DNA of 64,000 nt, taken from the NCBI GenBank assembly GCA_013298125.1, contig JAAFJP010000025.1:1-64000 (forward strand), in the 5' to 3' direction. Positions 26,783 through 35,325 of this stretch are shown in pieces; the stretch's first letter is position 1, and each line of letters begins with the position of its first letter. The DNA comes from Cytophagales bacterium. Lineage in GTDB: Bacteria > Bacteroidota > Bacteroidia > Cytophagales > Spirosomataceae. Position numbers and translations under genes: made by a program. Below the pieces are notes generated by a model. The model ran no database searches. It saw only the letters and a list, made by a program, of their open reading frames with translations, and had not been told where the DNA came from.

Positions 26783-27265
26783 TTACTTATCATAAGGCAT
26801 TTCTTCTGGACGTTTGCAAGCCAAAGCCTGAAACTTAGGAAAGGTTAAAAGGTCATTTACAAAGGCATCATCAATACTCAAAGCGTATTTTCTGTGAGAT
26901 AATAAAACTACTGGAATATGCTCTCTATCTTCTTGATTACAAGACAGTTTTCTCTCTATTTTCTTCGTGAAATGTTCTTCTTTAAAATCCTTTATTTCTT
27001 GATTTTTAACGAAAATTAAACGACCTTGTTTCTGTAAACGACTGATAATGGCAGTGATATTTTGCCCTTCTTTGTTGTTATAATTTGAACGATTATATTC
27101 ACCCAATAATTTTTGAGAAACCACCAAATGAGCGTTTGTATCTTCCTCACCTTCTTTGATTTCACGAAACAAAACTAACCAATCTCTCAATTTGATATAC
27201 TCAGGGTCGGCAGGATTTTTGAAACGACTGGCGATGTTATTGTCAATAAAAATATCTTTTTTCAT
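26783..27265 (-). CDS. PIN-like putative nuclease paired with an ATPase
   Basis: 160 aa with features of the PIN nuclease fold: an N-terminal acidic motif (IFIDNNIASRF, D~7), a mid-protein glutamate (SQKLLGEYNRS) and a late acidic pair after a hydrophobic helix (EHIPVVLLSHRKYALSIDDA). PIN proteins cut RNA and often serve as toxins. Its ATG shares one base with the stop of the upstream ATPase gene (TAATG), implying coupled translation. The match was made by eye; no domain search was run. Confidence 0.55.
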   Translation of the reverse strand: MKKDIFIDNNIASRFKNPADPEYIKLRDWLVLFREIKEGEEDTNAHLVVSQKLLGEYNRSNYNNKEGQNITAIISRLQKQGRLIFVKNQEIKDFKEEHFTKKIERKLSCNQEDREHIPVVLLSHRKYALSIDDAFVNDLLTFPKFQALACKRPEEMPYDK

Positions 27266-28605
27266 TAGGCAGAAGCGTATAGTGCAATGTCCATCACATC
27301 CATTTCGTAGGTATCAAAAAAGCCTTGTGGAGCATTTTTAATTTGTCCGTCTGTGGTGAGTTCAATAGCGTAAGTAGTGGTTTTTATTCCGTCGTTTTCC
27401 ATGTAATACAACTTCACATCTTCGGGTTTTAGCTCGCCTTTCACAATCAACAAACGCATCCGATTAATGAGATATTCGCTATGGGTTTCTACGATGTATT
27501 GTTTATCAATCTCTATATCGAAAAGAATATTTCCAGATTCCTCAGCAATCTCATTTACCTTTTTACAAAGATAATCAGCGAATGATGCTTGAATTTTAGG
27601 ATGTAAGTGGATTTCGGGTTGTGATATAACGAAACAAGATTCAAAATACATTTGTAAATCAGCTACAATAATTGGTAAAAACTGGCTAATACCAAATCCT
27701 ACGTCTGTTAAAGAAGCCAATTCACTATTTTCATTTACTTGTACATTTAATTCAAATCGCCCCCCTTTCATTTTGTTAGCTTGAACAGATTTGAAAAGCC
27801 CTATCTCAGTAACTGTCTTTATTAATTCATCAAACATTTCTCTGTCAGATTCCTCCCATTCAATAATTTGGTCTATATATCCTTCACCATTTACACCAAC
27901 TTTTCCAGCTTTGGGCTTCTGATAATAAGTTCTTACGGGAGGTAAACGAAATGAACCGATGTAGTTAAAATTTATGTCATTATACTCATTATCAAGATTA
28001 AAGAATATAAACCTCTTATTAAAAATTGAAAGACAACGATTAAAAAAATGTTCAAATGGTTCATCAATTACACCTGTAATTTCAATTGTTTTCTTAACAT
28101 CTTTATAACTCTCAATAACGATGTCTTTATTATTTTCTTTTAATTCTAAAATATCTTTTGTTGGATATGTACTATATTCACCAATTGTCTCAATGATATC
28201 AACATGATGTTTTCCATTTTCTAACCATATTTTGAAATTTTTAAAATATTCCCCAAATATTTTAATTTCGTTTAGCATTGGCAAATCCGAATCCTTTTTT
28301 TGAATCCAAGAAGTTGAAACAGTTACATTACGAGAATTTTCTAACTTAAATACGATTTCCACATTAAAATTCTCACTCTCCGCCTTCTTCCTCAAAACCT
28401 CATCAAATCCACCCATATTTATCAACTCTCCATTCAAGGCAAAATATTGAGGGAAATATTTACTTTGCATAATGCCCAACAAGGCATAAATCAAGGAGCT
28501 TTTGCCACTACTGTTTGCACCTGTCAGTAGGGTAATTTTTCCGAAATCTATATCCACTTGCTCAAAGCACTTGAAATCTTTTAATGAGAGTGATTTTATT
28601 AGCAT
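27265..28605 (-). CDS. AAA ATPase, DUF3696-like
   Basis: A 446-aa ATPase of the OLD/ABC-like AAA group. It starts MLIKSLSLKDFKCFEQVDID, then Walker A TGANSSGKSS (~residues 29-38). The signature region LTDVGFGISQFLP is followed by Walker B in VISQPEIHLHPKIQ (~residue 335) and the YIVETHSEYLINRM motif typical of DUF3696 proteins. ATPases of this type often gate a nuclease partner in anti-phage systems, and here a PIN-like gene follows with a one-base overlap. Function as a defence module is inferred, not shown. Confidence 0.85.
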   Translation of the reverse strand: MLIKSLSLKDFKCFEQVDIDFGKITLLTGANSSGKSSLIYALLGIMQSKYFPQYFALNGELINMGGFDEVLRKKAESENFNVEIVFKLENSRNVTVSTSWIQKKDSDLPMLNEIKIFGEYFKNFKIWLENGKHHVDIIETIGEYSTYPTKDILELKENNKDIVIESYKDVKKTIEITGVIDEPFEHFFNRCLSIFNKRFIFFNLDNEYNDINFNYIGSFRLPPVRTYYQKPKAGKVGVNGEGYIDQIIEWEESDREMFDELIKTVTEIGLFKSVQANKMKGGRFELNVQVNENSELASLTDVGFGISQFLPIIVADLQMYFESCFVISQPEIHLHPKIQASFADYLCKKVNEIAEESGNILFDIEIDKQYIVETHSEYLINRMRLLIVKGELKPEDVKLYYMENDGIKTTTYAIELTTDGQIKNAPQGFFDTYEMDVMDIALYASA

Positions 28606-30824: not shown

Positions 30825-32345
30825 CTAAACCTCCATCCCCTCAATCACCCCAACGGCATTACTCCCATCTTCAATGGCTGAGAGAATATCAAAAACTTTG
30901 TCTGACCATCCTGCAATCAAGAAAACGCTTTGGTTTTCGACTACGTTGATGGGCGTTGTGCCATAACCTGCCAAGTCGAACAAGTACAATTTGGCGTTTG
31001 GATTGATGGCTTGATATTGCCTCCAGACGGTCTGTATCGAGTTTCCGCCTTGACTATTCCACAATTGACAGTCGGTAAAAATCATAATTTTATCTACTTC
31101 CTGACGACGGTTTATCAAATTTTGTATCACCAAATGTCCGTTGGTCGAGTAGCCCACTTCGCCCTCACGACGGCGATATTCTTCGACATTGGACAAAATA
31201 TTGCTCTTCGGCATATTGATAATTTTCCAAGTATCGCCAAACATCCCCGTTACCACATTATCGCAACGGTTTTGAAGCAACATCGCCAACATCAAGCCAA
31301 TATCGAAGTTTTGGACTACGCTTTTTGGAGAAATATTGGTCTGCATCGAACCCGAAACGTCAGTCGCAATCACGACCCGAGTTTGAGTATCGAATCCACG
31401 AATATTGGCGGCTGAATGTTGTACTGCCAACTCCAAAGCACTCAAAATATTACCCACACGTCCGCTGTTCAAACGCTTTACTTCACGGTATGCCGACAAA
31501 AATCGGAAAGGGAATTGTTTTGAATTGGCAACGGCACGGGCGTTGCTCAATGTGGCACAAACCTTCTCGATGGCTTCTTGGCTCACGTTGGCTTCGATGA
31601 TGTTACGCAGGTTTCGCAACATTGCCATATAACCCAATTTGCCATCCATAATCAAACTTTCCCAAGCCTGCGTTTTGGCTTCGATTTTACCATTTTCATT
31701 CTCAAAATCGTTTTGCCCAACCGCTGACAAAGTAGTTTCCCACGTTTCGGCAGTTTTCAATTCGTCTTTGGCTATCTTGTTGAAAATCAATTGTTGAGCC
31801 TCATCTTTTGCCTTTGGGTGTACCAAAAACAAAGCATCTTTCAACTTTACTGCCGTGTTTGGGCGGTTGTATTTCGAGAATTGGTATTCGTCAAAACGGT
31901 TGAAGGCATCGCCCAAACCTTTCTGAATTTGTTTCGACAAACGGTTCAATTTTTTGACTTCTTTTCGTTGATTTGCCAATTGATAATACGCCAATAACTC
32001 AGTGATTTCGTCGGCACGTTGTACCACACGACCTACGGCACGACTCACCAAATTGTCCCCTTGGTGGATTTTGGCAAGTTCCGTCACCAAGACCAAAGGC
32101 ATCGAACGCATATACATACGCTCACGGGCATACACCGCCAATTTTGCCACAAATTGTGGGTCATTTTTACGGATTAATTCCTGAATACGAACCAATCGGG
32201 CATCTGTTTTTTCGTAAAAAGTATCTGACAATGAACTCGTTACGACAGAAGTGTATAATTCTAAGGCGGATGTCATACGAAAGGCTGTTGCTCCTTCGTA
32301 GTTTTTTACTTCTGATTTTTGTTTGTTAAAGATGTTGAATTTCAT
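30825..32345 (-). CDS. Ro60/Rsr RNA-binding protein (TROVE and vWA domains)
   Basis: 506 aa from the ATG at 32345. Residues ~20-310 form the TROVE HEAT-repeat ring and residues ~323-500 a vWA domain with the MIDAS motif DVSGS (329-333). Bacterial Ro60/Rsr binds Y RNAs, which tether it to partners such as PNPase or control access to its central hole, for RNA quality control. The open frame continues 35 codons upstream, but those codons translate a palindromic repeat, so the internal start is chosen. An array of tRNAs and five Y-like RNAs lies upstream on the same strand, giving unusually strong context. Confidence 0.93.
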   Translation of the reverse strand: MKFNIFNKQKSEVKNYEGATAFRMTSALELYTSVVTSSLSDTFYEKTDARLVRIQELIRKNDPQFVAKLAVYARERMYMRSMPLVLVTELAKIHQGDNLVSRAVGRVVQRADEITELLAYYQLANQRKEVKKLNRLSKQIQKGLGDAFNRFDEYQFSKYNRPNTAVKLKDALFLVHPKAKDEAQQLIFNKIAKDELKTAETWETTLSAVGQNDFENENGKIEAKTQAWESLIMDGKLGYMAMLRNLRNIIEANVSQEAIEKVCATLSNARAVANSKQFPFRFLSAYREVKRLNSGRVGNILSALELAVQHSAANIRGFDTQTRVVIATDVSGSMQTNISPKSVVQNFDIGLMLAMLLQNRCDNVVTGMFGDTWKIINMPKSNILSNVEEYRRREGEVGYSTNGHLVIQNLINRRQEVDKIMIFTDCQLWNSQGGNSIQTVWRQYQAINPNAKLYLFDLAGYGTTPINVVENQSVFLIAGWSDKVFDILSAIEDGSNAVGVIEGMEV

Positions 32346-32390
32346 GGTTGAAAATTTGTTTATGGAAATTGTAAGGTTAAGTTTGGGTAT

Positions 32391-32487
32391 GTAGGGACGA
32401 ATAGTATTCGTCCATCGCTGTACTGTTGTGGACGAATAGCATTCGTCCATCGCTGTACTGTTGTGGACGAATGCTATTCGTCCCTAC
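32391..32487. repeat. Tandem palindromic repeat before the Ro60 gene
   Basis: GGACGAATAGTATTCGTCC palindromes recur with a 35-base period (starts at 32395, 32430, 32465) joined by ATCGCTGTACTGTTGT. The block begins GTAGGGAC and ends GTCCCTAC, like the GTAGRGRC family. It lies between the start of the Ro60 gene and tRNA-Asn. Confidence 0.85.
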
Positions 32488-32565
32488 TAATACATCTTTT
32501 ACAAATTCCTTTCACTACGCCATCTTGAAGATATTTCAAGAGGAAAATTTAGGTATCAAATTTTG

Positions 32566-32637
32566 AGGACTGAGGTGGTATCGAACCACCGACCAACTCG
32601 TTAACAGCGAGTCGCTCTACCTCTGAGCTATCAGTCC
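32566..32637 (-). tRNA. tRNA-Asn(GTT)
   Basis: A full cloverleaf: acceptor GGACTGA/TCAGTCC, D arm GCTC-AGAGGTA-GAGC, anticodon stem ACTCG with loop CTGTTAA, T arm GGTGG-TTCGATA-CCACC. No CCA is encoded. It is the last RNA of the array before the Ro60 gene. Confidence 0.9.
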
Positions 32638-32646
32638 ACGGTTACA

Positions 32647-32765
32647 GGGCAAAAAACGATGAGAGAAATGATGCTCTATCCACTTGAGCTACTCTGTTTT
32701 AGAGGTAGGATTCGAACCTACAACCTTCCGATTAAAAGTCGAAGTATCTCTCATCTACGGCACCC
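32647..32765 (-). ncRNA. Y-RNA-like RNA 5 with permuted tRNA-Lys-like body
   Basis: Read on the minus strand: outer stem GGG/CCC, internal loop UGCCGUA opposite GUUUUUUG, and inner stem GAUGAGAG/CUCUCAUC (32748-32755 with 32658-32665). The body carries tRNA arms in permuted order: anticodon arm UUCGA-CUUUUAA-UCGGA (anticodon UUU), T arm GUAGG-UUCGAAU-CCUAC, a short acceptor hairpin CUCU-AAAAC-AGAG, then D arm GCUC-AAGUGGAUA-GAGC. The tRNA is thus opened between D and anticodon arms and its acceptor is closed. The scaffold is shared by five units here, and a Ro60 gene follows, which supports a YrlA-type Y RNA. Confidence 0.75.
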
Positions 32766-32769
32766 GCAG

Positions 32770-32842
32770 TTTCCCCAGAAGGACTCGAACCTTCGACTTT
32801 CACATTAAAAGTGTGAAGCTCTACCAACTGAGCTATGAGGAA
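32770..32842 (-). tRNA. tRNA-Lys(TTT)
   Basis: Complete fold: acceptor TTCCTCA/TGGGGAA with one wobble, D arm GCTC-AGTTGGTA-GAGC, anticodon stem TCACA with loop CTTTTAA, T arm GAAGG-TTCGAGT-CCTTC. It lies between Y-like RNAs 4 and 5, with gaps of 10 and 4 bases. Confidence 0.92.
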
Positions 32843-32852
32843 ATATAAAAAA

Positions 32853-32972
32853 TAAGGGTTAAAATCGAAAAGAGTACAAAAAACGGAAGGACTCGAACCT
32901 TCTACCTTCAAGTTATTAGCCTGACATTCTAACCAGATGAATTACGAAGTAACTCTGTTCTACGACACCTCA
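32853..32972 (-). ncRNA. Y-RNA-like RNA 4 carrying tRNA-Ile(AAT) in normal order
   Basis: The scaffold (outer UGAGG/CCUUA, inner GAACAGAG/CUCUUUUC with one mismatch, loop GUCGUA opposite GAUUUUAA) continues into UUACUUCG. The body has the arms in ordinary order: D arm AUUC-AUCUGGUUA-GAAU, anticodon arm UCAGG-CUAAUAA-CUUGA (AAU), T arm GAAGG-UUCGAGU-CCUUC. A GAGU(U)AC/GUACUC pairing replaces the normal acceptor, so the Y stem grows out of the acceptor position. An AAU anticodon is unusual for a bacterial tRNA-Ile (normally GAU), favouring a mimic over a working tRNA. Confidence 0.65.
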
Positions 32973-32977
32973 TTTAG

Positions 32978-33049
32978 TAACCAAGAATGGACTCGAACCA
33001 TTATCCTCAGAATCAAAGTCTGGCATCCTAACCTTTGGACGACTTGGCA
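32978..33049 (-). tRNA. tRNA-Gln(TTG)
   Basis: Acceptor TGCCAAG/CTTGGTT (six pairs), D arm with GTCC...GGAT, anticodon loop CTTTGAT on a short CAGA/TCTG stem, T arm ATGG-TTCGAGT-CCAT. The first acceptor pair is a mismatch. It sits between Y-like RNAs 3 and 4. Confidence 0.85.
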
Positions 33050-33064
33050 ATTTTGGTAAAATAA

Positions 33065-33196
33065 TCAAGGTAAAAATCGATAAGAGTAACGGGGCAAGTC
33101 ATTGCCAGAATCGAACGGGATAGCCTTACCGATTTTACGATTTCGCTATTCCTCCCCTAAATTGTTGACGAAGTATCTCTCATCTACGGCACTTGA
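33065..33196 (-). ncRNA. Y-RNA-like RNA 3, degenerate tRNA-like body
   Basis: The shared scaffold is clear: outer UCAAG/CUUGA, inner GAUGAGAG/CUCUUAUC (a G-U in place of G-C, compensatory against unit 5), loop UGCCGUA opposite GAUUUUUAC, then AUACUUCG. The body shows a hairpin GGCAA-UGAC-UUGCC in acceptor position, a T-loop-like UUCGAUU and an AUAGC/GCUAU stem, but D and anticodon arms cannot be assigned with confidence. It is most likely a diverged tRNA mimic. Confidence 0.6.
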
Positions 33197-33201
33197 AATT
33201 G

Positions 33202-33276
33202 TCTGGGTAGAGAGATTCGAACTCCCGAAAACGTGTATCCAAAACACGCCCGTATATCCATCTGCGGAACACCCAG
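33202..33276 (-). tRNA. tRNA-Pro(TGG), copy 2
   Basis: Acceptor CTGGGTG/TACCCAG, anticodon stem CGTGT/ACACG with loop TTTGGAT, T arm GGGAG-TTCGAAT-CTCTC. It is identical to copy 1 except for one base that makes the anticodon stem fully paired here. The two copies and their flanks look like a local duplication. Confidence 0.88.
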
Positions 33277-33284
33277 TTTAAAAT

Positions 33285-33512
33285 AATCAAGGCTAAAAGC
33301 GAGAAAAGAAATGCTCTTTTTGAGCGTCGTTCTTATCCGTTTTGGACGGACAGTGAACCGATAATTCGACATCTCAGAGAGACTTGCATTCTGAAAATCA
33401 GAACATTTTACCCTGTTGGTTTTTAACCCAACTTCACTTGCTCAGTCGCCTGAGTTACGCTACCTTAGGACCGTTATATTTACGAAGTATCTCTTCTCTA
33501 CGGCACTTGATT
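33285..33512 (-). ncRNA. Y-RNA-like RNA 2 with a 23S rRNA helix-69-like insert
   Basis: At 228 nt it is the largest unit. Scaffold: outer AAUCAAG/CUUGAUU (7 bp), inner GAGAAGAG/CUUUUCUC (covaries with the other units), loop UGCCGUA opposite GCUUUUAGC. After AUACUU, positions 33484-33458 match the 23S rRNA helix 69 and its 3' flank at 26 of 27 bases, with an exact core UAACGGUCCUAAGGUAGCG. A row of short hairpins follows (CUCAG-GCGA-CUGAG, GUUGG/CCAAC, UCCGU-CCAAA-ACGGA, GCUC-AAAAA-GAGC). The last two resemble a closed acceptor and a reduced D arm. Confidence 0.65.
33458..33484 (-). other. 23S rRNA helix 69-like segment
   Basis: The minus-strand 27-mer starts CGTAAATATAACGG and ends in GGTAGCG. 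It differs from the E. coli-type 23S sequence (recalled, not searched) only at the base equivalent to C1914. This universally conserved segment contacts tRNA and the 30S decoding region in ribosomes. It lies inside a Y-RNA-like unit, with no rRNA gene around it. Confidence 0.85.
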
Positions 33513-33516
33513 ATTG

Positions 33517-33591
33517 TCTGGGTAGAGAGATTCGAACTCCCGAAAACGTATATCCAAAACACGCCCGTATATCCATCTGCGGAACACCCAG
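33517..33591 (-). tRNA. tRNA-Pro(TGG), copy 1
   Basis: As copy 2, with one G-U in the anticodon stem (CGTGT/ATACG). Discriminator A, no encoded CCA. It lies 4 bases ahead of Y-like RNA 2. Confidence 0.88.
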
Positions 33592-33603
33592 TTTGAAAAA
33601 ATG

Positions 33604-33675
33604 CGGAACATACGGGACTTGAACCCGTTTCGCTACCGTGACAGGGCAGCATAATAACCCATATACCAATGTTCC
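33604..33675 (-). tRNA. tRNA-Asp(GTC)
   Basis: Acceptor GGAACAT/ATGTTCC is perfect. The anticodon stem CTGCC/GGTAG has loop CTGTCAC, and the T arm is ACGGG-TTCAAGT-CCCGT. The D arm is A/T-rich and weak. Discriminator G, as expected for Asp. Confidence 0.9.
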
Positions 33676-33689
33676 ATTTAATTGATGAT

Positions 33690-33746
33690 ACAAATTTCAA
33701 AACGCATTACGCAGTCTATTTGCGTAGTGATAAATGTTTTGAAATT
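33690..33746. repeat. Inverted repeat with ACGCAG/TGCGTAG core
   Basis: ATTTCAAAAC and its mirror GTTTTGAAAT enclose a second palindrome, TTACGCA-GTCTATT-TGCGTAG. The core recurs at 35620-35647 near the small ORF upstream of this locus. It interrupts the tRNA array. Confidence 0.7.
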
Positions 33747-33780
33747 ATTTTGTAATCATCTGACTATAAAATAGTTATAG

Positions 33781-33864
33781 CGGAGAGCAGTGAACACGAT
33801 TCACATACTTTTACAGTACGAACTTCTTAGCAGGAAGCCCCATGCCCTGCATGGTTTACTCTCC
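33781..33864 (-). tRNA. tRNA-Ser(GCT), odd T-loop
   Basis: Acceptor GGAGAGT/GCTCTCC, anticodon loop CTGCTAA on GCTTC/GAAGT, and a class II variable arm (GTACT...AGTAT). The T stem GTGAA/TTCAC is sound, but the loop is only TCGTG (5 nt), lacking the TTCRANY pattern. That may prevent normal D-T loop contact. Confidence 0.75.
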
Positions 33865-33870
33865 AAATTG

Positions 33871-33944
33871 TAGCCCCTGTAAGATTCGAACTTACACTAT
33901 CTTGTTTCTAAGACAAGTGCCTCTGCCGATTGGGCTAAGGGGTT
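33871..33944 (-). tRNA. tRNA with TAG anticodon (Leu by anticodon, class I shape)
   Basis: Acceptor AACCCCT/AGGGGCT with one mismatch, D arm GCCC...GAGGC, anticodon stem CTTGT/ACAAG with loop CTTAGAA, T arm GTAAG-TTCGAAT-CTTAC. Anticodon UAG reads Leu CUN codons, yet the variable loop is only 5 nt, whereas true tRNA-Leu is class II. The amino-acid identity is therefore uncertain. Confidence 0.75.
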
Positions 33945-33961
33945 ATGTGTGGGGAATATTT

Positions 33962-34070
33962 CTGAATCAGGATTTAAGGATTAGAGGAAAAAAAGATTTG
34001 ATTATCCAATAATATTCCAATTCAATTATCATCTTGAAAATCCTAACATCCTCAAATCCTGATTTAGATA
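33962..34070. repeat. Inverted repeat, CAGGATTT family
   Basis: TCTGAATCAGGATTTAAGG on the left is mirrored by CCTCAAATCCTGATTTAG on the right, with a 65-base centre. It is inserted between two tRNAs of the array. Related blocks are at 52835-52916 and 59905-60003. Confidence 0.7.
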
Positions 34071-34074
34071 AATG

Positions 34075-34157
34075 TGGGGAATGACGGAATCGAACCGCCT
34101 GAGCATAAAGCATTCGATTTACAGTCGAACCCGCTACCAATTACGGAATACTTCCCC
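34075..34157 (-). tRNA. tRNA-Tyr(GTA)
   Basis: Acceptor GGGGAA/TTCCCC, anticodon stem TTCGA/TCGAA with loop CTGTAAA, class II variable arm (TGC...GCA-type), T arm GGCGG-TTCGATT-CCGTC. Discriminator A. All arms are present. Confidence 0.9.
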
Positions 34158-34168
34158 TTGTTTTTGAG

Positions 34169-34241
34169 TGGAGGAAATAGGACTCGAACCTATATCTACT
34201 GATTTTCAGTCAGTCGCCTTGACCATCTCGGCTATTCCTCC
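34169..34241 (-). tRNA. tRNA-Phe(GAA)
   Basis: Perfect acceptor GGAGGAA/TTCCTCC, D arm with AGCC...GGC, anticodon stem ACTGA/TCAGT with loop CTGAAAA, T arm ATAGG-TTCGAGT-CCTAT. It lies 9 bases downstream of Y-like RNA 1. Confidence 0.92.
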
Positions 34242-34250
34242 AAAATAAAA

Positions 34251-34389
34251 GAAGGCAAAAAACGATGAGAGTTTTTATTCCACCTTACTGACCAAAGTCA
34301 GCATCAGGATTTGAACCTGAATGAGCTTTTCGCTCGTAAGTTTTTAAGACTTATGTGTAAACCGAAGTATCTCTCTTCTACGGCACTTC
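34251..34389 (-). ncRNA. Y-RNA-like RNA 1 carrying a circularly permuted tRNA-Leu(TAA)
   Basis: Scaffold: outer GAAG/CUUC, inner GAAGAGAG/CUCUCAUC (one mismatch), loop UGCCGUA opposite GUUUUUUG, then AUACUUCG. The body is a complete class II tRNA-Leu in permuted order. It holds the 3' part of the D-loop with CAC, anticodon arm UAAGU-CUUAAAA-ACUUA, variable arm GAGC/GCUC, T arm UCAGG-UUCAAAU-CCUGA, acceptor hairpin UGCUGAC-UUUG-GUCAGUA (34286-34303), and the 5' part of the D arm with GUG. GUG pairs with CAC, so the Y stem is inserted in the D-loop and the acceptor has no free end. This is the clearest tRNA mimic of the set. Confidence 0.8.
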
Positions 34390-34395
34390 TTTTTG

Positions 34396-34480
34396 CGGAG
34401 GCAGAGAGAATCGAACTCCCAAGTCAGTTTCCCGACCAACAGTTTTCAAGACTGTGCCCTCGTCCATTCGGACTACCTCC
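34396..34480 (-). tRNA. tRNA-Ser(TGA)
   Basis: Acceptor GGAGGTA/TGCCTCC, anticodon stem ACAGT/ACTGT with loop CTTGAAA, class II variable arm with GTC...GAC, T arm GGGAG-TTCGATT-CTCTC. Discriminator G. It lies 6 bases ahead of Y-like RNA 1. Confidence 0.93.
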
Positions 34481-34485
34481 AATTG

Positions 34486-34574
34486 TACCGCCAGCAGGAT
34501 TTGAATCGCTACGGCGAACCGTCTACACGTTCCACCTTATGAGAGTGGCATCCTACCAATTAGATTATGGCGGC
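34486..34574 (-). tRNA. tRNA-Met-like (CAT) with disrupted T arm
   Basis: Acceptor GCCGCCA/TGGCGGT, D arm ATCT...GGAT and anticodon stem CCACT/GGTGG with loop CTCATAA are normal. The 5' T strand GTAG is separated from TTCAAATCCTGC by about 17 extra bases containing a small hairpin ACGG-TTCG-CCGT. Removing them would restore a standard T arm. It is first in the array, 7 bases after the basic protein gene. It could be elongator Met, Ile2 or non-functional. Confidence 0.65.
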
Positions 34575-34581
34575 AAATTCA

Positions 34582-35325
34582 TTAACATTCTTCCAAAATT
34601 CGATGTAAACTCTTGTTCCTCAGAGGATTATCGTATTTCTGTTTCTCCGTATCGCCCCAATGGTCATATCCCCAATCTCTGAGTTTTGACAATCGGGCAT
34701 AATTGAGTTTGTTTCTATAAACCTTATGATTGAGTTCTGCCAGACGTTGTTCCAATTCCTCATCGTGGGTTTTTACTTTATCAATCATATTCGGTCTGAT
34801 CCTCAAAACATATCTCCACGGTTCAGTCATTTCAAAATATTGTCTCTGATAAATTTTCTTAAACTTTACTTCAATTTTGATTTTGAAAGTGAAGCAAAGC
34901 ATTTCTTGCGGAGTCAATTTTAGTTTATTGATTTCGTAGGGATAAATTACCTTCAATTCTTGATTTCTCTCCTCGTAAATTCTACGTCCCAATCTTTTCT
35001 TTTTCTTCTTAAATTCTTTCGTTGGACTGTACTGAGTCGTATTGATTTTACGTAAAAGATTTTCGTAAAAAACTCCTTGTTTACTTCGTCTAACGTCCTC
35101 TCTCACAATGAAGTAGCGTTTATATCCTCGCTGAATCGGAGGGACTAAATCAATCATAGGGAGTTCTCGGTGACGTTTTCTGAGTTCTCGGTCTTCTCTG
35201 AAAAGGCGAATCAGTTTTTTGTCTTGTCCTTCGATGATGTCACGCTTTCTACGTCTCTTCGAGCGGATTCTAATTTGGTCTTCCCAATTATTAAAAATGT
35301 ATTCTTCTGTTGTGGCAAAGCCCAT
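34582..35325 (-). CDS. Very basic hypothetical protein, 247 aa
   Basis: Extremely rich in Lys and Arg (for example RIRSKRRRKRDIIEGQDKKL, and KKKKKRLGRRIYEERNQ), with no signal peptide or membrane segment, so RNA binding in the cytoplasm is plausible. It ends 7 bases before the first tRNA of the tRNA/Y-RNA array and is on the same strand, so the three parts could form one transcript. No known family was recognised. A palindrome (CTGATTA/TAATCAG, 35332-35354) lies just before its start. Confidence 0.75.
   Translation of the reverse strand: MGFATTEEYIFNNWEDQIRIRSKRRRKRDIIEGQDKKLIRLFREDRELRKRHRELPMIDLVPPIQRGYKRYFIVREDVRRSKQGVFYENLLRKINTTQYSPTKEFKKKKKRLGRRIYEERNQELKVIYPYEINKLKLTPQEMLCFTFKIKIEVKFKKIYQRQYFEMTEPWRYVLRIRPNMIDKVKTHDEELEQRLAELNHKVYRNKLNYARLSKLRDWGYDHWGDTEKQKYDNPLRNKSLHRILEEC

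Follow-up and report, generated by a model that had tools for sequence, protein, structure and literature searches.

On the minus strand of a 64,000-nucleotide stretch of contig JAAFJP010000025.1 from a Cytophagales bacterium (the window), a gene for a basic protein is followed, in reading order, by a run of transfer RNA (tRNA) genes and Y RNAs (34575-32565) and then by a gene for a Ro60 protein (coordinates in Table 1). The original prediction, made from the letters of this DNA, had described a TROVE/vWA (Ro60/Rsr) gene, an array in which divergent tRNAs alternate with five distinct Y RNAs, and a gene for a basic protein, all on one strand; this arrangement has been borne out. The Ro60 protein matches the Pfam families TROVE (PF05731; E 6e-29, 101.9 bits against a cut-off of 23) and vWA_Ro60 (PF25045; E 5.9e-9, 36.5 bits against a cut-off of 27.7), carries the vWA motif DVSGS, and is the product of the single TROVE gene in its own assembly (5.85 Mb). 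Its score against the NCBIfam Rsr equivalog NF041674 is 29.6 bits, where the curated cut-off is 900, and we therefore regard the window protein as a Ro60 relative outside this equivalog. The nearest relatives in public genomes, among the best 80 of 277, come from Emticicia (79 and 78% identity; L006-L008).

The Y RNAs share a sequence signature, GYGYCGTAG..TACTTCG, which at up to 5 mismatches is found five times in the window, never outside 30-36 kb and never in the reversed window. For comparison, we used 80 of 277 confirmed Ro60 loci, picked by similarity to the window Ro60 (81 with the window). The signature was present, again at up to 5 mismatches, in 80/80 of these Bacteroidota loci (360 matches), while the reversed control gave one match at one locus. 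A core filter reduced 516 candidates to 391; these still include chance matches (about a dozen lie in coding sequence on the opposite strand near Ro60), and the filter lost a few real Y RNAs, such as L019 8775. Searches across more than 40 genomes were run with stricter filters.

Evidence for a conserved stem comes from compensatory changes. Among the 252/391 candidates passing both filters, stem position 1 is occupied by G-C (171), A-T (62), G-T (17) and A-C (2), and position 4 by C-G (149), T-A (76), T-G (14) and C-A (9). The 3' end of each RNA was picked from the inner stem alone, and two further terminal pairs were then tested for covariation: within single loci, the counts were 176 vs 19 (52 loci) and 147 vs 11 (44 loci), and when each locus contributed a single RNA (n=77) the p-values, inflated by taxonomic relatedness, were 1.4e-10 and 1.5e-13. 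We take the Y RNAs of the window to be real, with a stem that covaries; the lack of a conserved stem in relatives had been named as a refutation, and among them the stem is kept by covariation. A T-arm was detected in 260/391 Y heads (mean in shuffles 9.75), and the permuted order typical of YrlA, with the T-arm before the D-arm, in 124/391 heads across 69/81 loci. Given this distribution and the presence of the signature at every locus, neither a permuted tRNA mimic nor a set of several Y RNAs is unusual for a Ro60 locus. Chen et al. are said to have reported multiple Y RNAs per species in 2014, and the earlier view that a Ro60 gene with more than one Y RNA nearby had no precedent does not hold: all 80 loci carry at least one signature, most of them several.

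What changes from one Y RNA to the next is the head enclosed by the stem. Within the window, only Y1 has the permuted order; it matches the Rfam YrlA family RF02553 with 37.9 bits (E 3.7e-6), which falls short of the family's gathering score, 69. A second YrlA match reached 24.8 bits at 32811-32910, and the Rfam scan gave no others at E up to 5. Y2 follows the ordinary tRNA order and matches the tRNA family RF00005 over positions 6-65 (43.2 bits). Y5 scores 18.2 bits with RF00005, below threshold, its arms being seen by eye and in the fold. Y3 received no Rfam score and its own T-arm failed a strict T-arm test; its cargo recurs, by eye, in L006 6725, L007 6375, L056 3358 and L064 9469, and we judge it to be a reduced tRNA-like head from relatives that retain the T-arm. 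Single-sequence folding gives weak support (z-scores of -1.78, +1.18, +0.10, -2.37 and -1.50 for Y1 to Y5), and the structural case therefore rests on covariation among relatives. The original prediction of five tRNA mimics was thus too uniform: Y2 holds a tRNA body in the ordinary order, and Y4, which has neither arm order, carries a piece of ribosomal RNA (rRNA).

The Y4 head contains a 33-nucleotide segment identical to 23S rRNA at 30/33 positions (blastn, E 5.7e-6). In Escherichia coli numbering, we take this segment to correspond to about 1909-1941 and to run from the loop of helix 69 through helix 70 into a shortened helix 71-like hairpin with a GNRA loop. The likeness to domain IV of 23S rRNA (helices 69-71) consists of this segment and the hairpin that follows; about 130 nucleotides of unrelated conserved structure come next, and the whole is enclosed by the Y stem. 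A hidden Markov model of six Y4 members matched the same place of 23S in 5/5 rRNA loci (E 5.1e-5), and the member at L075 matched 23S with E 5.7e-8, compared to 0.006 for the best shuffled head. Across nine Y4 members, CCUAAGGUAG and the preceding UAA are invariant. In the Y4 alignment A1, 14/38 pairs show changes in both partners, and pairing is kept in 95.5% of the cells, values matched by 0/500 shuffles. No Rfam family was found for Y4 in the window (E up to 5) or at eight further loci, and the remainder of Y4 showed no more similarity to 23S in the five rRNA loci (nhmmer --max). No further copy of the Y4 motif is present in the own assembly, so its own 23S gene lies outside this comparison. 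When all Y heads of at least 25 nucleotides were compared with two rRNA operon loci, the 23S matches among the best 60 of 464 blastn lines were all of the Y4 class (two members, L024 and L052, do not appear among these 60); the remaining lines fell on two places that we take to be tRNA genes of the operons, and the search for other rRNA mimics yielded no candidate there. On these comparisons we regard Y4 as a 23S-headed Y RNA rather than a tRNA mimic.

The Y4 class extends beyond this genome. R1, a covariance model built from six sequences including the window (130.9 bits for this training member), matches in 9/81 Ro60 genomes, i.e. the window and 8/80 others. Three of these lie outside the training set: Dysgonomonas sp. 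521 (G575, 112.0 bits) and a Microscillaceae metagenome-assembled genome (G590, 109.7 bits), both at a contig place other than the Ro60 locus examined, and Microscilla (G581), where one RNA is split by an insertion (55.2 and 43.5 bits). Among 395 genomes drawn from the class, 18 of which contain TROVE, R1 found this genome only; 8/80 against 0/394 corresponds to p 4.9e-7 for samples that differ in selection and filters. A 16.3-bit match at L044 is noise, and a match of G137 to the pattern ACTTCN{6,18}CCTAAGGTAGC in the 395 genomes was judged to be chance, the reversed control also giving scattered matches. Matches to Y4 in 20 phage records and one plasmid covered the 33-nucleotide segment only and were annotated or evident 23S rRNA, not Y RNAs. 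A Y4 pattern search of 2.9 million viral contigs returned one record, L171, which matches R1 with 37.0 bits (E 1.4e-5) and encodes a TROVE protein (32.9 bits, cut-off 23) as well as a Major Vault Protein-like protein (MVP_shoulder, E 9.9e-28). It carries 14 tRNAs in the part examined plus one more called Pyl, and four Y-like motifs with another beside TROVE. A looser pattern added the weaker L191 (IMGVR_UViG_3300045902_000666), where a Y-like 5' motif precedes a weak CCTAAGGTAG match.

tRNA genes, too, cluster at Ro60. Leaving aside seven ARAGORN tRNAs whose start coincides with a Y 5' end, we counted 186 tRNAs outside Y RNAs in 1.14 Mb of 80 Ro60 loci, compared to 7 expected from the tRNA density of the genome to which the window belongs. 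At least four tRNAs are present at 17/81 loci, window included, and at 11 of these 17 array loci there are Y RNAs with a tRNA no more than 1.5 kb away on either side. Several protein genes recur in the neighborhood of Ro60: RtcB at 40/81 loci, Band_7 proteins at nine, and a PF09414-type RNA ligase at five, all of them array loci. In Emticicia agri, the array locus (L007:585-4406) has the look of an island for RNA repair, as RtcB and Band_7 are encoded there together with an RNA ligase, an Endonuclease V-like protein and an ATP-grasp protein.

In the window, ARAGORN called 11 tRNAs, all on the minus strand between 32565 and 34575. The original prediction had placed them on one strand, correctly, and given their number, 13, too high: we find these 11 and one degenerate Ser(GCU)-like element. 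By eye, the latter has an acceptor stem of 7 bp and the anticodon loop CUGCUAA but no canonical D- or T-loop, and its best identity (67.4%) is to the housekeeping Ser(GCT) of the same genome. Every array anticodon is duplicated by a housekeeping tRNA elsewhere in the assembly, with identities between array and housekeeping copies of 55-74%, and 9/11 array tRNAs are closer to an array tRNA of another species (the best of several being compared with one or two housekeeping genes). The expected discriminator base is present in 132/145 parsed array tRNAs from 18 loci, as scored with a table of expected bases that allows two for some isotypes and with 22/169 unparsed tRNAs, the window CAT tRNA among them, and two of unknown isotype left out. 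Array His tRNAs have C73 in 7/7 and G-1 in 5/7 cases, and no tRNA-Ala was found among 162 array tRNAs. Most array tRNAs thus look chargeable; those for Leu and the long CAT tRNA look odd. With the discriminator mostly as expected, the array tRNAs look like spares rather than decoys.

Table 1. Features of the Ro60 locus in the window, by position.
Feature	Position	Strand	Basis
Ro60/Rsr gene (TROVE + vWA), 506 aa	30825-32345	-	Pfam PF05731, PF25045
tRNA-Asn(GTT), unusual discriminator T	32565-32637	-	ARAGORN
Y1, permuted tRNA-like (T-arm then D-arm), YrlA type	32648-32763	-	Rfam RF02553, arm-order test
tRNA-Lys(TTT)	32769-32842	-	ARAGORN
Y2, Y stem around unpermuted tRNA body, CUAAUAA anticodon loop	32857-32968	-	RF00005; ends read from sequence
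tRNA-Gln(TTG)	32977-33049	-	ARAGORN
Y3, probable reduced tRNA-like cargo: GGGG..CCCC closing stem, long hairpin, UUCGAUUC	33069-33192	-	by eye
tRNA-Pro(TGG), copy a	33201-33276	-	ARAGORN
Y4, ~215-nt Y RNA with 23S rRNA helix 69-71 segment	33291-33506	-	blastn, model R1, covariation
33-nt segment matching 23S rRNA helix 69-71	33452-33484	-	blastn
tRNA-Pro(TGG), copy b, in 90-nt repeat 97% identical with copy a	33516-33591	-	ARAGORN
tRNA-Asp(GTC)	33603-33675	-	ARAGORN
degenerate tRNA-Ser(GCU)-like element	33781-33864	-	by eye; missed by ARAGORN
tRNA-Leu(TAG), short (class I) variable loop, 75 nt	33870-33944	-	ARAGORN
tRNA-Tyr(GTA)	34074-34156	-	ARAGORN
tRNA-Phe(GAA)	34168-34241	-	ARAGORN
Y5, tRNA-Leu(UAA)-like anticodon, variable and T arms, no D-arm	34254-34386	-	RF00005, eye, fold
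tRNA-Ser(TGA)	34395-34481	-	ARAGORN
CAT-anticodon tRNA, long variable arm, 91 nt	34485-34575	-	ARAGORN (called Met)
basic orphan protein, 247 aa, pI 10.0	34582-35325	-	open reading frame

The anatomy of the locus is therefore one of a constant stem with changing heads, interleaved with tRNA genes, and with a 23S head that is found in bacteria as well as in a virus record. From it we infer an accessory island for tRNA provision and RNA handling, in which Ro60 would work with interchangeable adaptor RNAs carrying tRNA-like or 23S-like heads; we give this reading about even odds (roughly 0.5). Ro60 could hold the whole Y RNA family through the shared covarying stem, as is suggested by the known biology of Ro60 and Y RNAs, and each RNA would end in a different head, most of them imitating tRNA and Y4 imitating helices 69-71. 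The most likely task of the heads would be to bring proteins with an affinity for tRNA or for this part of 23S rRNA, such as modification enzymes or nucleases like PNPase, onto Ro60; alternatively, they might gate which RNAs enter it. The outcome could be the handling of damaged tRNA and 23S rRNA by Ro60. According to the literature, tRNA-like Y heads are substrates of tRNA-modifying enzymes. By the same logic, the 23S head may bring Ro60 to enzymes acting on this region of 23S or regulate access of damaged 23S, as the tRNA heads would for tRNA. The divergent array tRNAs are most likely spares that could replace housekeeping tRNAs lost to damage, a reading suggested by their identity bases and by the RNA ligases beside the arrays of relatives. 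Given the architecture common to the window and the virus record, such cassettes might be passed between viruses and bacteria or arise repeatedly in both. That this locus has to do with the handling of tRNAs had already been suggested, and this is the theme that the locus evidence supports best.

Several observations weigh against this reading. At 6/17 array loci, Y RNAs and tRNAs are not interleaved. RtcB, RNA ligase and Band_7 relatives of the Emticicia agri proteins are missing from the 64-kb window, and the link to repair is therefore made only by analogy with relatives. The 23S head is rare (9/81 Ro60 genomes); U1939 is not conserved among the nine Y4 members, U positions known as modified are not uniformly kept in the head (8/42), and one of five measures for alignment A1, further pair types, did not exceed shuffles (86/500). 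The folds of Y2 and Y3 are no better than those of shuffled sequences. As to the tRNAs, array Lys and Met resemble housekeeping genes at least as much as other arrays, the window Asn has an atypical discriminator, and the array tRNA-Leu genes are 74-77 nucleotides long and without a long variable arm in 9/9 cases (own housekeeping Leu genes: 83-85 nucleotides), when the window CAT tRNA has a long one, two oddities for which this reading does not account.

The main rival is a decoy shield, in which the Y heads would act as bait for nucleases, whether ribonuclease toxins or enzymes triggered by phage, whose targets are anticodon loops or this 23S region; Ro60 would only stabilise the baits and the tRNAs would serve as replacements. 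Toxins cutting 23S near position 1940 exist. Hughes et al. propose that the tRNA-like domain of YrlA could compete for an anticodon nuclease (PMC7790460), and the tRNAs and ligases of jumbo phages are interpreted as a conflict with host nucleases (PMC7824862), which the like architecture in the virus record would fit. However, an anticodon loop is present only in some heads (Y2, Y5) and is missing where the order is permuted, as it is in the largest ordered class of heads; conservation in the mimic covers CCUAAGGUAG and UAA but not the stretch around U1939 that could be cleaved; and there is no toxin gene among the eight proteins scanned beside the window array. We consider such a decoy shield unlikely. 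Less likely still is an ordinary mobile tRNA array, from a phage or another element, that was inserted by chance at a locus for Ro60 and Y RNAs and shares no function with it. Ro60 is indeed patchy (2/8 genomes of the genus, 18/395 of the class), many Ro60 loci lack arrays of four or more tRNAs, and a genome of the same genus (G002) has Ro60, RtcB and one Y RNA with no tRNAs in 15 kb. A chance insertion is at odds with the 186 tRNAs counted where 7 were expected, with the placement of Y RNAs between tRNAs in 11/17 arrays, in several orders, and with the repetition of the combination in the virus record. That the 23S-like segment of Y4 is debris of an rRNA gene or a homing target is already disfavoured and very improbable: only about 33 nucleotides match 23S and the segment overlaps the I-CeuI homing site, but it stands at the same place of the same RNA of about 215 nucleotides in nine genomes and also in the virus record. 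In every case it follows the Y 5' arm without a gap and is flanked by covarying helices.

Beyond the adaptor island itself, we put forward, more tentatively and at somewhat less than even odds, that Y RNAs are a modular family of adaptors or decoys, whose constant Ro60-binding stem would present heads copying tRNA in several layouts and the core of 23S helices 69-71, and that bacteria and viruses may use them, with spare tRNAs, to keep translation going under attack on tRNA or rRNA. Why bacteria retain Ro60, and what Y RNAs do, has long been asked. Should a Y RNA indeed carry a ribosomal head, Y RNAs would be a general class of adaptors, beyond tRNA mimics, and head-binding proteins could be isolated with defined RNAs. 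The interleaving with spare tRNAs, together with a virus record that repeats the set, would tie Ro60 to conflicts over the translation apparatus, for which the window offers a concrete and testable locus.

Ro60, Y RNAs near Ro60 and tRNA mimicry are already known. In the literature searched, whose coverage of Ro60 is incomplete, we found neither a Y RNA with a 23S head nor an alternation of Y RNAs and tRNAs next to Ro60. Bacterial Ro60/Rsr systems with YrlA-type Y RNAs (Deinococcus, Salmonella, Mycobacterium) have in common with the window a TROVE/vWA protein with adjoining Y RNAs, the end-pairing stem and the permuted tRNA-like head seen in Y1; the window differs by five dissimilar heads, including the unpermuted tRNA of Y2 and the 23S head of Y4, and by tRNA genes between them. 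The Salmonella RNA repair operon rsr-yrlBA-rtcBA (PMC7790460) likewise unites Ro60 and Y RNAs, whereas the window lacks RtcB (tblastn, 64 kb; RtcA and RtcR were not looked for) and adds a tRNA array and more Y RNAs. With the jumbo-phage arrays that combine tRNAs, RNA ligases and TROVE proteins (PMC7824862), the window shares the tRNA array and TROVE, the ligases being found in its relatives. It is, in contrast, a bacterial contig, and the short Leu tRNAs of the arrays differ from those of the virus record (84-88 nucleotides).

The basic protein encoded at the far end of the array has relatives at 5/81 Ro60 loci. It matched no Pfam family above cut-off and no PDB sequence, and its AlphaFold model (pLDDT 78) gave no Foldseek match at E <=0.001 in PDB or among viral models; the best VIA match (Z 5.7 over 57 residues) was not trusted. 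Among the eight proteins scanned, PADLOC placed no model over Ro60 or the basic protein. Three 35-nucleotide direct repeats, which also form strong inverted repeats, lie between Ro60 and the array (32391-32499). Also in the window, an AAA_15/DUF3696 ATPase gene and a small partner gene occupy 26783-28605 (ATPase 27265-28605); several PADLOC defence ATPase profiles match the ATPase at low specificity, the best being NsnB (E 2e-61). Elsewhere in the assembly, a 7.3-kb contig (G000:C70) bears tRNAs Arg(ACG), Cys(GCA) and Arg(TCT) and is perhaps another tRNA-bearing element.

Phages supplied further observations. In csAssE-Sib (L159 5657-5875), the annotated tRNAs Tyr and Lys upstream of Ro60 seem, by eye, to lie inside Y stems and are thus apparently Y RNA heads, not free tRNAs. 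Caulobacter phage CcrColossus (L161 4817-5795) carries seven Y-type signatures (up to 7 mismatches) in a row upstream of its TROVE gene. Virus record IMGVR_UViG_3300013126_005437 (L183:2756-5248 and L183:7299-9035) encodes a Major Vault Protein-like protein near a TROVE protein, with a tRNA array and Y-like RNAs nearby; the vault-like protein matches MVP_shoulder (E 9.9e-28) and Vault_3 and has no relative at the other loci searched. Since the animal vault protein TEP1 has a TROVE domain, this pair of neighbors could bear on the origins of vaults.

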